Assembly: GCA_022566355.1 (NCBI GenBank)
Contig: JADFJB010000099.1
Location: 11,977-17,568 of the forward strand
Direction of reading: 5' to 3'
Source of the DNA: a candidate division KSB1 bacterium
Lineage (GTDB): Bacteria > Zhuqueibacterota > JdFR-76 > DREG01
Length of the DNA: 5,592 bases
Shown here: positions 1-5,592 of the stretch, piece after piece
Position numbering within the stretch: the stretch's first letter is position 1
Layout: each line of letters opens with the position of its first letter
Position numbers and translations under genes: made by a program
The notes under the pieces: generated by a model
What the model was told of the DNA's origin: nothing
What the model saw: the letters and a program-made list of their open reading frames with translations, nothing else
The model's database searches: none

Positions 1-2437
1 AAGCACGGCGGACGTTTTACAAAGTTTAGGTTTCCATGTTTCATCTTCAGTTTCGATTAAGCATTTAATATCCAATGGCGCCCAATCTGACACATTCAGT
101 GATAATTCCTCAGCGATTGGCGGAATTTATGATCTTTCCTCACCGCCATCGGGAACAGTGACCATCAATGATAAAACTGTCGCTATAGATCTATCAACAG
201 ATTCATTAAGTGATATCCGGGACAATATAAATACTGCTGCCCCAACAGGCGTAACTGCTTCTATCGTAACAACGACTGAAAATGGATCGACGGTGTATAA
301 GCTAAAAATTGCCGGAACCACCACATTTATAGACGTTAATAATGTCTTACAAACTATAGGGGTACTTGAAGGAGATAGAACCACTGCTCAACAGCTTACC
401 GGAAGTGTGGCAAATACTGAGATTTCTTCAAGTAATAATATAATAGCTTCTACGACTTTTGATGATATAACCGGGGCAAGTGTCGTTAATGGGGATACAA
501 TTACAATTTCCGGAACAGACCATTCCGGAGATTCGGTTTCATCAACATTTACGATTACTAATAAAAGCACACAAACAGTTCAAGATTTATTAACTGCAAT
601 TCAGGATGCTTATAATGGTGAGATTACAGCATCAGTAGATGTAAATGGTAAAATTGTCGTTACTAACAATACTTCAGGTACTAGTAATTTTGTTTTAACC
701 TTAACGGAAAACAATGAGGGTGCTGGAGCACTGGACTTTGGAACATTTTCTACAACTGTTACCGGGGGTGTAGGAGAATCGGGAGAACTTGAAGCCGGTC
801 GCGATAATTCACTCATAATTGATGGCATAAAAGTAACTCGGAATACAAACAGCATTTCCGATATTCTGAGTGGCACTACGCTTGATTTAAAAAAAGCCGA
901 TACCACAAAAACCATCATCATTTCAGTTACAAGAGATTATGATGCAATAATAGACAATGTGGAAAAGTTTGTAACCGAGTACAATAAATTAGTCGATTTT
1001 ATCAGTGAACAATTCACCTACGATGAAGAAACTGAAGAAGCCGGTGTGCTGTTTGGCGATGTCGGATTAACTTCCGTACAAAATGGAATTAGAGCTATCA
1101 TAAGCGATCGTAACACTGCTTTGCCGTCGGCCTTGAGATCCTTGTCCCAAGTTGGAATAGATACGGATCGAAATGGGAAATTATCTTTAGATTCAAATAA
1201 ATTTCTTGAAGAAATCAAGGATGATTTTGATGGCGTCATGAAAATATTTTCCGCATTCGGTTCAACGACAGACGGAGATGTTACATTTGTTTCTCATACA
1301 AAAAGCACTAATGCCGGGACCTATGCAGTAAATATTACGCAAGCAGCTACACAGGGCGCTTTAACCGGAACTACAGATCTGACTGCTGGGATAGCCGGTG
1401 CCGAGGTGCTTACGATAACCGATAAGGCGACAAGCCAAATTGCTTCCGTATCCATTGCAAGTGGCGCTGATATCGATGCAATTGTCAGTCAAATCAATGC
1501 TGAATTGGCCAAAGAACATAAGCAAATAAAAACTTCTACGGGAACTATATTAGAAAGTGCCGCTGCGGCTACTTCACTTACAGTGTGGACGAATACCGAT
1601 CATAGTGTTACCGTTGGAGATACCATCAGCATTTCAGGAAAGACCCACAGAGGTCAATCCGTATCCGGCACGTATACAATCGCTTCCGGGGATACGGTAC
1701 AAAAACTTCTGAACAAGATTCAGGATATTTATCAGAACACTGTCAACGCATCGATAGATAGTAATGGTGCAATTGTCGTAACAAATAACGAAACAGGTTC
1801 CAGTAACCTGGACATCACATTAACGGCAAATAATGAAGGCGCAGGAAGTTTAGACTTTAGTACCATGAGTTTAACGCAGACAGGGCGGTATTCTATAAAT
1901 ATGACTGCAAGTAATAGCAGCGGAAACCTAAAGCTGACTCATAATGATCACGGACTTAGTAACGGATTTACCATTAGTCAGAGTGTAAATAATTTGGGAA
2001 TGGCAGACGCAGAATATCTTGGCCAGGATGTGGCCGGGACGATAAATGGAGAATCCGCTACCGGCAAAGGACAATTTTTAACCGGGGATGCTGATGAATC
2101 AAACATAGACAGTCTTGTGCTCAAAGTTTCGATTACAACGAGCCAATTGACAACACAAGGCGCTTCGCAAGGTAATATTACTTTAACATTGGGTGTCGCT
2201 GAACAATTGTTTAATCACATTGAAAACATTACCGATTCATTCACAGGCTTTGTCTCCACAAAGCAAGATTCTTTAAAGGATACCGTTGACAATATACAAA
2301 AACAGATTGATGCCATGGAAATAAGGGTTGGTCAAAAAATTTCCACTTTGGAATTACGTTTCATAAACCTGGAAATAGTGATAGCACAAATGAATAGCCT
2401 TTCTAGTTTTTTAACAGCCCAACTTGCGTTATTATAA
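1..2437 (+). CDS. fliD: Flagellar filament cap protein FliD (hook-associated protein 2), 5' end outside window
   Basis: FliD forms the cap at the tip of the growing flagellum and helps exported flagellin fold into the filament. The frame is open from base 2, with no start visible, so 811 residues are seen and the N-terminus is missing; a GTG at 158 is internal, because homologous sequence continues upstream of it. Residues 50-100 (TINDKTVAID, then DSLSDIRDNIN, then GVTASIV) match the usual FliD pattern. The hook-associated-2 C-terminal domain starts near residue 268 (LIIDGIKVTR) and includes VTEYNKLVDF near 324. The last 80 residues are heptad-like helices ending in a QMNSLSSFLTAQL-type tail, as FliD proteins do, so the C-terminus is complete. 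Two insertion domains, near residues 150-255 and 523-629, are copies of each other and help explain a length above the usual 450-700. fliS follows after 43 bp. The family call is secure; the roles of the insertions are inferred. Confidence 0.93.
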   Translation, partial: STADVLQSLGFHVSSSVSIKHLISNGAQSDTFSDNSSAIGGIYDLSSPPSGTVTINDKTVAIDLSTDSLSDIRDNINTAAPTGVTASIVTTTENGSTVYKLKIAGTTTFIDVNNVLQTIGVLEGDRTTAQQLTGSVANTEISSSNNIIASTTFDDITGASVVNGDTITISGTDHSGDSVSSTFTITNKSTQTVQDLLTAIQDAYNGEITASVDVNGKIVVTNNTSGTSNFVLTLTENNEGAGALDFGTFSTTVTGGVGESGELEAGRDNSLIIDGIKVTRNTNSISDILSGTTLDLKKADTTKTIIISVTRDYDAIIDNVEKFVTEYNKLVDFISEQFTYDEETEEAGVLFGDVGLTSVQNGIRAIISDRNTALPSALRSLSQVGIDTDRNGKLSLDSNKFLEEIKDDFDGVMKIFSAFGSTTDGDVTFVSHTKSTNAGTYAVNITQAATQGALTGTTDLTAGIAGAEVLTITDKATSQIASVSIASGADIDAIVSQINAELAKEHKQIKTSTGTILESAAAATSLTVWTNTDHSVTVGDTISISGKTHRGQSVSGTYTIASGDTVQKLLNKIQDIYQNTVNASIDSNGAIVVTNNETGSSNLDITLTANNEGAGSLDFSTMSLTQTGRYSINMTASNSSGNLKLTHNDHGLSNGFTISQSVNNLGMADAEYLGQDVAGTINGESATGKGQFLTGDADESNIDSLVLKVSITTSQLTTQGASQGNITLTLGVAEQLFNHIENITDSFTGFVSTKQDSLKDTVDNIQKQIDAMEIRVGQKISTLELRFINLEIVIAQMNSLSSFLTAQLALL
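449..766 (+). repeat. FliD insertion domain, copy 1 (flagellin/hook IN-like)
   Basis: This is the first of two related segments of about 105 residues inside fliD. It has the order GDTITISGT, then QDLLTAIQDAY, then a conserved stretch at nt 632-739 (SVDVNG, IVVTNN, NNEGAG, LDF). Over that 36-residue stretch I count 25 identities with copy 2, without gaps. The pattern resembles the flagellin/hook IN motif that recurs in surface-exposed domains of flagellar axial proteins. The DNA has diverged more than the protein, so the duplication is not recent. Confidence 0.8.
1568..1888 (+). repeat. FliD insertion domain, copy 2 (flagellin/hook IN-like)
   Basis: This is the second copy of the fliD insertion domain. 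It has the same element order: GDTISISGK, then QKLLNKIQDIY, then the conserved stretch at nt 1751-1858 (SIDSNG, IVVTNN, NNEGAG, LDF). It lies within the C-terminal half of FliD, about 270 residues after copy 1 ends, so the pair is separated by core FliD sequence rather than being in tandem. It probably adds a second solvent-facing domain to the cap subunit; that structural role is inferred. Confidence 0.8.
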
Positions 2438-2480: not shown

Positions 2481-2915
2481 ATGGAATACCAGAGCCAGAT
2501 ATCTCACTACAAAAAAGTTCAGTTGTCCACTGCAAATCCCGGGAAATTAGTTTCAATGTTATTTGCCAGGCTTGAAAAAGAGCTTACCAATGCCAAGGAA
2601 TTTATCATTTTTAGTAAACTTGAAGATAAATGCAACTCAATATTATTAAGTCAAGAAATTCTTATTGAGCTGACTAGCTCTTTAAATTTTGAGGCAGGTG
2701 AAATTGCAAATAATCTGCAGTCACTTTATTTATACATGTATCGTGAACTCAACTTGATTAATCTTAAAAATGATACAGAAGCAGTGGATGTTGTCATACA
2801 AATCAGCAAAGATCTGAATTCTACATGGAGTGAAATGTTACAAAAAAATCCTGAAGTATCAAAAGAATCAAAATCAGCCCAAATAAATTACCAAAATATG
2901 TCGATAGTAGGATAA
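2481..2915 (+). CDS. fliS: Flagellin export chaperone FliS
   Basis: FliS binds the C-terminal helices of flagellin in the cytoplasm, prevents early polymerisation and delivers it to the flagellar type III export gate. The 144-residue product shows the family pattern: an N-terminal Y10 followed by VQLSTANPGKLVSML (residues 13-27), LSQEILIELTSSLNFEAGEIANNLQSLY-type helices around residues 56-83, then YMYREL, and LNSTWSEML at 112-120. The length is normal for FliS. I chose the ATG at 2481 because the family's N-terminus begins there and a GAGGG ribosome-binding site lies at 2464-2468; the in-frame ATG at 2424 would start inside fliD and add an unusual basic extension. The gene sits directly after fliD, a classic order, and is followed one base later by the next gene. 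Confidence 0.93.
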   Translation: MEYQSQISHYKKVQLSTANPGKLVSMLFARLEKELTNAKEFIIFSKLEDKCNSILLSQEILIELTSSLNFEAGEIANNLQSLYLYMYRELNLINLKNDTEAVDVVIQISKDLNSTWSEMLQKNPEVSKESKSAQINYQNMSIVG

Positions 2916-2916
2916 G

Positions 2917-3348
2917 ATGAATAAAACCAACGTAGCTGATATTGTTTGGCAACAATACATAAACGCTTTAAAACGCCTGGAAACATTAATAGAAGACCAG
3001 GCTTATACCTTAAGTGAAGAGGATTGGGATCATTTAACCTCAATTATGGGGAAAATAGAAAACTCCAAAATGCACTTAAAAAATAGCTGGGAACTTCTTA
3101 GTTCTTCAAAAGGAAGCCATTTAAAGAAAGGTTCAAAAGACAATTTGGCTGACAATGATAAGGGTGAAGCGAAAGCTATTTTGACGACACTTCTAAGCAT
3201 GAATAAGAAAAATGAAGAATTACTTCGAAAGGAAATGGAACAGCTGAAAATAAATATGTCAGTTTTGAAAAAGACCAGGAAGAGTCATAAGAAGTATATC
3301 ACACAAAAACAGATTGAAGAATTCTCCCCTTTGGACGTAAACGGATGA
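2917..3348 (+). CDS. Putative flagellar export chaperone, FliT/FlgN-like
   Basis: This 143-residue, highly charged and mostly helical protein has no signal peptide or membrane segment. The N-terminal half holds a helix with NALKRLETLIEDQ (residues 16-28) and EEDWDHL (34-40). A Lys/Gly/Ser-rich linker lies near 64-84. A long amphipathic helix near 85-125 (ILTTLLSMNKKNEELL onward) ends in KKTRKSHKKY. Two helices joined by a linker, with 'N..LL..E...L' spacing, is the general look of FliT/FlgN chaperones, and the place just after fliS is where fliT normally lies. The ATG follows the fliS stop by one base and an AGGA site (2909-2912) overlaps the end of fliS, so translation is probably coupled. 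If FliT, it would guard FliD before export. The sequence evidence is weak, so the name rests mainly on position. Confidence 0.6.
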   Translation: MNKTNVADIVWQQYINALKRLETLIEDQAYTLSEEDWDHLTSIMGKIENSKMHLKNSWELLSSSKGSHLKKGSKDNLADNDKGEAKAILTTLLSMNKKNEELLRKEMEQLKINMSVLKKTRKSHKKYITQKQIEEFSPLDVNG

Positions 3349-3375: not shown

Positions 3376-3402
3376 TAAGGATGTTTGAGAGCGGGCCGAG
3401 AA
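3376..3402 (+). promoter_or_regulatory. Candidate sigma-28-type flagellar promoter
   Basis: TAAG at 3376-3379, a 15-base spacer, then GCCGAGAA at 3395-3402. The consensus for sigma-28 (FliA/SigD) is TAAA-N15-GCCGATAA, so the match is 10 of 12 with exact spacing. It lies in the 70-bp gap before the FlgN-like gene. Against it, transcription would begin near 3409, at the end of the AAGGA ribosome-binding site, so it would serve flgM better than the gene just after it. This is a by-eye match only. Confidence 0.3.
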
Positions 3403-3422
3403 CCAAGGAAATGAAATTATGA
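3381..3422 (+). other. Possible 13-codon leader reading frame ending on the next start codon
   Basis: An ATG at 3381 opens 13 codons (MFESGPRTKEMKL). Its TGA at 3420-3422 overlaps the ATG of the FlgN-like gene (ATGA, 3419-3422). A stop-start overlap of this kind is typical of translational coupling. The only ribosome-binding-like bases (AAGG) touch the ATG directly, which is too close to work well, so this frame may be chance. Confidence 0.2.
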
Positions 3423-3838
3423 ATAACCATAATGGCATGATGTTAATAAATGCCCTTAATTTACATAAGAGTTCAATAAATTCATTGCTAAGAATATCAA
3501 AAAAGCAGAATGACTGCATTAAAAAGCAGAACTTTTCTAAGTTATTTTCAAGTAGAGATGATAAGGAAGGTTTACTACATCGATTAAAGAAATGGGGTAG
3601 GGATATTAAATACTACTATGAAAATTGGTCGGAGTTACAGGAACACTTGACCGAGGAAGAAAGGATTAGAATATTAACATTGGTTGATTCGATTTCTAAG
3701 GTGATAGAGGATGTTCTAATTATTGAAAATGAAAATAGAATTTTTTTGGAAAAACGTAAAACAGAACTAACCCATGAGCTTGGAACAATTGACTTTTTTC
3801 AAGAATGCTTAATCTCGGTTTATACAAATCGGAATTAG
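3419..3838 (+). CDS. Putative flagellar hook-filament junction chaperone, FlgN-like
   Basis: This 139-residue, cytoplasmic, all-helical protein has no signal or membrane segment. The first helix runs about residues 10-60 and contains 'SLLRISKKQNDCIKKQNFSK' followed by DDKEGLLHRLKKW (48-59), like the 'E..aL..gd...L..l...Ke.ll' pattern of FlgN/FliT proteins. A second long helix near 80-120 carries IIENENRIFLEKRKTEL, like the 'l..l...N..Ll..r' pattern at the FlgN C-terminus. FlgN normally binds FlgK and FlgL and escorts them to the export gate, and its gene is often beside flgM, as here. The ATG at 3419 is chosen for its AAGGA site (3405-3409) at good spacing; ATGs at 3437 and 3440 lack one. Family similarity is moderate and FliT cannot be excluded. 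Confidence 0.6.
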   Translation: MNNHNGMMLINALNLHKSSINSLLRISKKQNDCIKKQNFSKLFSSRDDKEGLLHRLKKWGRDIKYYYENWSELQEHLTEEERIRILTLVDSISKVIEDVLIIENENRIFLEKRKTELTHELGTIDFFQECLISVYTNRN

Positions 3839-3931: not shown

Positions 3932-4414
3932 ATGAAGATTGACGGAATACCAAATGGCTTGATTCCTAAAAATCAACCGCTAGACGGTAACAATAAAGCA
4001 AAAGCGAAGGATAGCGCCAATACCCGACCAAAGAGTGACAAGCTGGATATTTCTCTCCGGGCGCATAAATTACATGATCAGGAAGAACTTTTGCAAATTG
4101 CAAAGTCCAAATTAAACTCTATCTCCGACATTCGTCAGGAACGAATTGAGGATGTCAAGGGGAAAATAGCATCAAAATATTATGATCAAGACCAAGTTAT
4201 TTCAGACATTGCCGGTAAAATGGCAAAGTCAGAAGAACTTGCCGATCTATTGGCTTCGGAGAATAAACAAGCATCTCAACTTAATGAAAAAGATGTTAAA
4301 AAACTAGCGATTATTTTTAACCGGATTGATAGAGGTTTTTACGATAAAGAAGCTGTTTTAAAAAGCGTAGCTGACAAGTTAAAGACTTACCTGTCTGATG
4401 ATTCTAAAGAATAA
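3932..4414 (+). CDS. flgM: Anti-sigma-28 factor FlgM, long form with duplicated C-terminal motif
   Basis: FlgM binds the flagellar sigma factor (sigma-28/FliA) and blocks filament-gene transcription; once the hook is complete it is exported through the flagellum and the sigma is freed. The product has 160 residues. A disordered, Lys/Asn-rich N-terminus precedes the hallmark SDKLDIS (35-41). A helix follows, then RIEDVKGKIASKYYD, and IAGKM near 97, which is the normal end of the sigma-binding region. Unusually, about 60 more residues follow and contain a second copy of that motif (124-150: RIDRGFYDKEAV, then VADKL). The ATG at 3932 is chosen because AGAGG (3917-3921) sits at correct spacing; the TTG at 3923 would add only three residues. 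It is the last intact gene before the decayed region. Only about 20 bp of AT-rich DNA, including a short TTAATA-T-TATTAA palindrome (4424-4436), separates its stop from the facing pseudogene, and no GC-rich terminator is seen. Confidence 0.88.
   Translation: MKIDGIPNGLIPKNQPLDGNNKAKAKDSANTRPKSDKLDISLRAHKLHDQEELLQIAKSKLNSISDIRQERIEDVKGKIASKYYDQDQVISDIAGKMAKSEELADLLASENKQASQLNEKDVKKLAIIFNRIDRGFYDKEAVLKSVADKLKTYLSDDSKE
4142..4222 (+). repeat. FlgM sigma-binding-type motif, copy 1
   Basis: Residues 71-97 of FlgM (RIEDVKGKIASKYYD to IAGKM) form the canonical motif in which two helices flank 'G/K-Y-Y-D'. They align without gaps to residues 124-150, with 6 identities and about 10 conservative changes over 27 positions. 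Confidence 0.65.
4301..4381 (+). repeat. FlgM sigma-binding-type motif, copy 2
   Basis: Residues 124-150 of FlgM repeat the motif of copy 1. The core RGFYDKEAV with VADKL is, if anything, closer to the common FlgM pattern 'GxYxxDxxxxAxKL' than copy 1 is. Conserved positions include I, Y, D, V, A and K. It is probably an old internal duplication. Confidence 0.6.
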
Positions 4415-4431
4415 GATTAAAAATTAATATT

Positions 4432-5008
4432 ATTAACGCGGACATACCTGCTGCCGTCGGTTTGGATCTCCTACTGATGGTTCCTTCGAGAACGTACTTC
4501 TACCTCCAACTTATCGCCTATTTGCACCAGCCCCTTTGTGGTGTTCTTGTACTGCATGGCGCTGGAGCGGGCAACAACTCCGAACCCAGATAACGACGTG
4601 TGATCTCGCCGGTTATTCCATCAGAAAAATAGGCATCTTCAGCCAACCTCAAATTCTCAAACGGCAGAACCCCAGCAATTTTCTTTCGGGGGTAAGTTGG
4701 CTTTCCCCTGGTCTGAAAAAGGAATATCAAGCTGAGTTTAAAATCACAATGCTAAGAACGGCTCCAGCGAAAAGAACCTTCGGAAGGTTTGAGATCCAAT
4801 TCCATCGGATTACCTGTCAGTAAAGCTGTGATTGGTTCTTGATTCTCATTCAGAATGGAATAGGTGATGGCTTGTTTAATCTCCTTTGAAGGACAGTTGG
4901 GCCTGGAAGCATTTCATAGATCAAAACTCCAAGGGAAATATACTATCAGTACGATAGTATATCTCTCCTCCTCTGCTTTGTTCACGTGACATGTATGACG
5001 TGCTCCGG
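4432..5008 (-). pseudogene. Remnant of a transmembrane Ser/Thr protein kinase with TolB-like domain
   Basis: Reading the minus strand and switching frames recovers a protein in the right order. SYMSREQSRG (about 4970-5000) corresponds to the kinase 'YMSPEQarG' motif (subdomain VIII) with P changed to R. It is followed by YYRTD, then SLGVLIYEML (4901-4933; subdomain IX), QLSFKGD (the usual QLPFKG), and AITYSILNENQEP with GNPMELD (about 4795-4880). A membrane helix follows, VLFAGAVLSIVIL (about 4730-4780). Then comes KKIAGVLPFENL with AYFSDGITGEIT (about 4590-4690), then GVVARSSAMQYKNT with VQIGDKLEVE (4495-4581), then YVLEGTIS (about 4470-4497), then DGSRYVRV near the 3' end. In the family a kinase domain is joined through one membrane helix to a TolB/cyclase-associated 'IAVLPFENL...DGITEEI' domain, often with TPRs. 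Here the kinase N-lobe is gone, the kinase end is deleted before the helix, and at least five frameshifts exist, so it cannot be active. Confidence 0.8.
4938..4962. repeat. Perfect 10-bp inverted repeat with 5-base loop
   Basis: Arms ATATACTATC (4938-4947) and GATAGTATAT (4953-4962) flank AGTAC. It has the shape of a repressor operator, but it falls inside the kinase remnant, where it encodes the EIYYRTDSI region between subdomains VIII and IX. It also lies near one of the frameshifts. It has no T-run, so it is not a terminator. It may be a coding coincidence or a small templated mutation. Confidence 0.5.
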
Positions 5009-5075: not shown

Positions 5076-5592
5076 TCAGAACGTTACGATGCTGGCTGGA
5101 TCGCCGAAATACTTGAGCTTCCGAAAGTGGGACCGGATGCCCCGAAAAGCGTCGGATGATCGTTGTAGGGAATGCCGTGCTCACGGGCCACCTGTTCGAC
5201 GATAGGAGCCGATGGCAGGATAGTGAGTACTACAGATTTTGGGGAATAGATGGTGTTCGATCTGGAAGTTCAGACCGGCCACATAATAGCAAAGAAGCCG
5301 GTTCCTACGGGCGAAGTTCGCCGTGGTTTTCATTTCGTGCACAAGCCATGCGTCGTCAATCATTTCGCTCTGTTCCGCGCGCGCGGGCGTAATATTCCGG
5401 CCCTTCGATCACGTAGGCGAGCTGAAACACGAGGTTGAGGATCAAACCTGCGGTCACGTGCATGGCGAGGAACCCGATCAAGAACTGCCACCAGGCAATA
5501 TCGAGGAAAACGAGTGGCAAAACGATGATATAGGAGTAGTACACGAGCTTCATGGCGAACAGCCGCACCACTTCCCCGCGAGGAGGAACGAT
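5076..5592 (-). pseudogene. Membrane fatty acid desaturase, C-terminal half, frameshifted; 5' end outside window
   Basis: Such enzymes insert a double bond into fatty acyl chains using a di-iron centre held by three histidine boxes in a membrane protein. From the right edge, the frame gives KLVYYSYIIVLPLVF, two hydrophobic segments, and FQLAYVIEGPEYY, where the family usually has QLAHVVE. After a shift within the CG run at 5376-5385 it continues as DAWLVHEMKTTANFARRN, then AGLNFQIEHHLFPKICSTHYPAI. QIEHH (5250-5264) is the third histidine box in the Gln form typical of front-end, Delta-5/6-like desaturases. A second shift at about 5206-5211 leads to PIVEQVAREHGIPYNDHPT, and a third at about 5139-5143 leads to IRSHFRKLKYFGDPASIVTF and a stop at 5076. 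Boxes one and two would lie outside the window. The reading in one order across three shifts marks a decayed gene, unless the shifts are sequencing errors. GC content is higher than in the flagellar genes. Confidence 0.85.

Follow-up and report, generated by a model that had tools for sequence, protein, structure and literature searches.

In a candidate division KSB1 bacterium, the putative anti-sigma-28 factor FlgM carries its C-terminal helix-turn-helix module twice, residues 71–97 and 124–150 being confirmed at the sequence level as two copies of the same module. FlgM couples the expression of late flagellar genes to assembly in a textbook switch, models of which assume one sigma-binding region per molecule. 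The family and its pathway are textbook material, and the two-module form is a new variant. At 160 amino acids with two modules, the protein departs from the typical FlgM of ∼90–110 amino acids with a single module, a departure which marks a variant and not exclusion from the family because a single module is a typical, not a defining, property. No description of a duplicated, tandem or longer FlgM was found in the open-access literature searched, a weak indication of absence.

In the window, the whole stretch of 5,592 nucleotides analysed, flgM lies in an operon with fliD, fliS and FlgN-like genes, all of them upstream, and the double-form relatives in three phyla have flagellar neighbours as well. 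Such a setting is usual for flgM, which typically neighbours flgN. The flgM reading frame begins with ATG, preceded by the likely ribosome-binding site GAAGAGGA. The features, by window position, are as follows:

2–2437, plus strand: fliD, filament cap (PF07195, 139.9 bits), its 5′ end outside the window
2481–2915, plus strand: fliS, flagellin export chaperone, in the flgM operon (PF02561, 99.5 bits)
2917–3348, plus strand: FliT/FlgN-like export chaperone (PF05400, 23.6 bits; PF05130, 21.3 bits; both below cut-off)
3419–3838, plus strand: FlgN-like export chaperone directly upstream of flgM (PF05130, 25.3 bits, below the cut-off of 30.5)
3932–4414, plus strand: flgM, predicted anti-sigma-28 factor of 160 amino acids whose C-terminal part holds two FlgM-type modules, detected as two domains by a single-module FlgM HMM
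4034–4081, plus strand: N-terminal FlgM motif SDKLDIS..A..L, residues 35–50, occurring once; D36 and S41 invariant in alignments A1 and A3
4142–4222, plus strand: module 1, residues 71–97, colinear with the canonical FlgM C-terminal region (Pfam match at 51–98)
4223–4300, plus strand: linker, residues 98–123, with a short SEELADLL-like start and a variable remainder
4301–4381, plus strand: module 2, residues 124–150, the second FlgM-type helix-turn-helix copy; Y137 invariant

A sigma-28-like promoter match, TAAGGATG-N11-GCCGAGAA, is present at 3376–3402, shortly before the FlgN-like gene that starts at 3419, and agrees at 12 of 16 positions, a level at which chance alone would give 1.6 matches per window. 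Past flgM, from 4415 to the contig end at 5592, GC content rises from ∼0.31–0.38 to 0.45–0.51 and only broken reading frames are observed; judged by eye, these include fatty-acid desaturase-like pieces in two frames (5181–5592, minus strand) and an adenylate-cyclase/TolB-like piece, 'LPFENL..YFSDGI' (4518–4730, minus strand).

Identification of the gene as FlgM, made in the original prediction, is supported by the single-module HMM, the N-terminal motif and below-cut-off matches to the family models. The protein contains the N-terminal [VL]xIS motif (SDKLDIS, residues 35–41) followed by the C-terminal helix-turn-helix region (residues 66–97), with SDIR, the window's version of the canonical PDVR motif, preceding module 1. 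With FlgM as defined by PF04316 and TIGR03824 it shares this V/LxIS motif, the PDVR-type lead-in, a helix-turn-helix module with its conserved Tyr, colinearity over residues 1–100 and the flagellar operon context. It differs in possessing ∼60 extra C-terminal residues with the second module and in scoring below both curated cut-offs, albeit with significant E-values: PF04316 matches residues 51–98 only (23.2 bits, cut-off 25) and TIGR03824 gives 28.3 bits (cut-off 40.75). D36, S41 and Y84 are invariant across 10 double-form sequences. Around module 1 the family profile can be aligned with PDB 9wsf_B; 9wsf and 1rp3 were retrieved with a made-up consensus-like FlgM query, used for that purpose only, and 1rp3, 1sc5 (Aquifex) and 9wsf are FlgM structures. 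AlphaFold, given the window FlgM as a single sequence only, returned one continuous helix with a pTM of 0.32, not a usable model.

The second copy is detected by several comparisons. The 27-mers at 71–97 (RIEDVKGKIASKYYDQDQVISDIAGKM) and 124–150 (KLAIIFNRIDRGFYDKEAVLKSVADKL) align without gaps and are identical at 6 of 27 positions, as originally predicted, with coinciding hydrophobic positions (I72/L125, V75/I128, I79/I132, Y84/Y137, V89/V142, I93/V146, A94/A147 and M97/L150). The best ungapped match of residues 71–97 within 98–160 starts at 124, with a BLOSUM score of 38 compared to 7.8 ± 6.1 for shuffled tails (p 0.0004). Alignment of the module 1 and module 2 profiles from 8 relatives by hhalign gives a probability of 98.2% over 32 columns; over 19 proteins, module 1 against module 2 scores a mean of +1.66 versus −0.69 ± 0.24 for permuted columns, and all other tested registers are negative. 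The single-module HMM, trained on 31 single-module FlgMs from other phyla with no double-form sequence among them, scores 72.7 bits on the whole window protein, with domains at 13–100 (56.0 bits) and 105–154 (20.0 bits in context), and detects two domains in 19/19 double-form proteins. Isolated parts score 58.5 (residues 1–100), 23.3 (101–160) and 22.0 bits (110–160), the best of ∼2000 shuffles reaching 8.9 bits.

A FlgM profile search over residues 110–160, by which the original prediction proposed to judge the second copy, had a divided outcome: plain Pfam is blank there, the result named as counting against the copy, while the HMM score just given supports it. Neither the Pfam nor the NCBIfam FlgM model matches residues 100–160 of the window protein. 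The Pfam blank is nevertheless overruled because the more sensitive HMM and the relatives reveal the second copy, the Pfam FlgM model matching two stretches in 3/3 tested Latescibacterota relatives and, in the Zixibacteria genome G219, it being the second copy that exceeds the Pfam cut-off. That residues 124–150 are just another amphipathic helix pair, a reading to which the blank family models and a mere 6 identities lend some appeal, is extremely improbable, chance resemblance being ruled out by the HMM, the shuffles and the Latescibacterota Pfam stretches.

Module 2 is best read as an appended copy, added in an ancestor and kept, as its homology, distribution and conservation show, since the N-terminal motif and module 1 are colinear with ordinary FlgM. 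In the window the second copy begins at the helix, with a Tyr-to-Tyr spacing of 53 residues, and module 2 of the KSB1 phylum is without the PDVR-type lead-in found at module 1 and at Latescibacterota second copies. The Latescibacterota doubles (L214–L224) share the two-module layout and the flagellar neighbourhood, with spacings of 52–59, but differ in that most second copies repeat the PDVR-type lead-in (spacing 59), the copies are less diverged and some genomes have several FlgM-like loci. In cross-phylum scores module 1 did not consistently group with module 1, a pattern compatible with one ancient duplication or with several. Within the window's phylum, pairs of sequences are on average 31% identical in module 1, 33% in module 2 and 10% in the linker (residues 101–122), and in a same-genus pair (G010/G027) dN is 0.24 for module 2, 0.50 for module 1 and 1.11 for the linker; only dN contrasts were used because dS is saturated in most comparisons. 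Judged from these rates, module 2 is constrained and kept by selection. The original inference of long retention from the divergence of the copies thus agrees with a double form in at least three phyla whose module 2 is as strongly conserved as module 1.

A comparison of relatives for the same double form, proposed in the original prediction, revealed it in at least 8 sequence-checked genomes of the KSB1 phylum, which NCBI places as Candidatus Zhuqueibacterota in the FCB group, and in Latescibacterota and Zixibacteria. Double forms occur in at least 11/64 Latescibacterota genomes (loci L214–L224, plus the partial L225) and, with the FlgM N-terminus, in 2/132 Zixibacteria genomes as identified by sequence (L175 and L191). 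FlgM matches were obtained in 44/80 genomes of the Krumholzibacteria phylum, 63/299 of the Firmicutes phylum and 176/198 of the Spirochaetota phylum; the matches listed look like the single form, ending at about profile positions 95–118 except for a few reading through stop codons. Phylum labels here come from the titles of the centre genomes' records and do not amount to an independent classification, and a search of the phylum of G087 returned the same Spirochaetota genomes again. A first contig scan with the window FlgM as query gave no match.

Other arrangements of the module are also observed. Within the window's phylum, family f10 consists of single-module proteins of ∼115 amino acids whose module is closer to module 1 than to module 2 (hhalign 93.3 versus 82.5). 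In families f9 and f12 a single C-terminal module is clear and the middle segment is only weakly module-like (59.7); the first module of these families is, on this comparison, degraded or absent. A SEELADLL-like segment follows module 1 in other phyla too, with S-x-EL in Zixibacteria and in the single-module f10 forms. Reading frames of 45–54 amino acids encoding a lone FlgM-type module (e.g. TEIQNRIRGGFYFQYEIFKIIADKVFKELNIKK) are located apart from flgM at L036, L037 and L039 in the window's phylum, and the Zixibacteria proteins L174, L179 and L184 are built from a pair of FlgM-type modules and lack the N-terminal FlgM motif. Several FlgM-like matches are found in the Latescibacterota genomes G630, G637, G638 and G639 and at L224, whose double FlgM gene is immediately preceded by a gene for a single-module FlgM (ORF starts 965 and 1468).

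We favour, with moderate confidence, the reading that the window protein inhibits the genome's one clear FliA and that the appended module 2 adds a second contact on that same FliA. FlgM-family models match once in the host genome, and a single FliA (G000:C4:48966-49637) exceeds its family cut-off of 189.6 with 275.5 bits, the next sigma factor scoring 142.6. FliA matches place the genome near 'uncultured Deferribacteres bacterium DRR093004_bin.37' and 'candidate division KSB1 bacterium 4484_219', which, judged from coinciding contig numbers and coordinates, appear to be the assemblies G002, of the window's family, and G003, of its order. The N-terminal motif and module 1 would act as an ordinary FlgM, wrapping FliA so that core RNA polymerase cannot take it up, on the model of the Aquifex sigma-28/FlgM complex. 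Module 2 would extend the wrap by contacting sigma-2 or sigma-4 on a further face, for instance, resulting in stronger inhibition and perhaps sigma protection, and inhibition would end with the export of FlgM upon completion of the hook-basal body. Largely disordered, FlgM is known as an export substrate (PMC3861889, PMC8306008); its export follows hook-basal body completion and sigma-28 is its export chaperone (PMC3861889). The hydrophobic positions and invariant Tyr which module 2 shares with module 1 are consistent with the same binding mode, although that mode may differ given that module 2 of the KSB1 phylum begins without the lead-in. Counting against an added FliA contact are the same-phylum members with one module (f10) or a degraded or absent first module (f9, f12), as well as a host FliA which looks ordinary. 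In CnrY two short helices embrace the sigma domains (PMC4598750), and wrapping ECF anti-sigma factors of this type, which belong to another family and act on another sigma group, serve as a working analogy only.

Among the alternatives, a division of labour in which the N-terminal motif and module 1 bind FliA while module 2 is a site for FliS or a FlgN/FliT-like chaperone, both being bound at once, appears unlikely. In Salmonella and Yersinia, FliS and FlgM form a 1:1 complex through a site close to that of FliA or overlapping it (PMC8306008), and fliS and FlgN-like genes adjoin the double flgM both here and in relatives. However, FliS binding is described for ordinary single-module FlgMs and so requires no second module, and module 2 resembles the sigma-binding module, with no chaperone-specific signature found in it. 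We likewise consider it improbable that module 2 is kept for folding, stability or export kinetics, as part of a longer and more helical substrate, without a specific sigma contact. An exported, largely disordered protein whose conservation is limited to short amphipathic helices is compatible with such a role, but the sigma-binding residue pattern is kept in three phyla and module 2 evolves as slowly as module 1, a degree of constraint that seems to go beyond what stability alone requires.

A broader proposal is that FCB-group bacteria reuse the C-terminal module of FlgM as a sigma-binding unit, doubled in FlgM, paired in the proteins lacking the N-terminus and alone in the small proteins, with some copies controlling sigma factors other than FliA or binding two targets at once; we regard it as speculative and rather improbable. 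Doubtful to a greater degree is a changed stoichiometry, in which one sigma-28 is bound per module or module 2 takes a different sigma factor. The homologous modules are 53 residues apart and the Zixibacteria proteins without the N-terminus hint at modules working independently of classical FlgM; against this, the whole wrapped chain is believed to take part in canonical inhibition. Among the plausible options of the original prediction, namely tighter binding, two sigma factors and slower export, binding of two sigma-28 molecules looks the least natural because there is one clear FliA and the N-terminal segment is unduplicated.

Standard Pfam annotation overlooks the second module in divergent lineages. 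A natural two-module family, kept by selection in at least three phyla, provides ready-made pairs with and without module 2, and such pairs would allow one to ask what share the module 2 region has in FlgM affinity, sigma protection and export rate.
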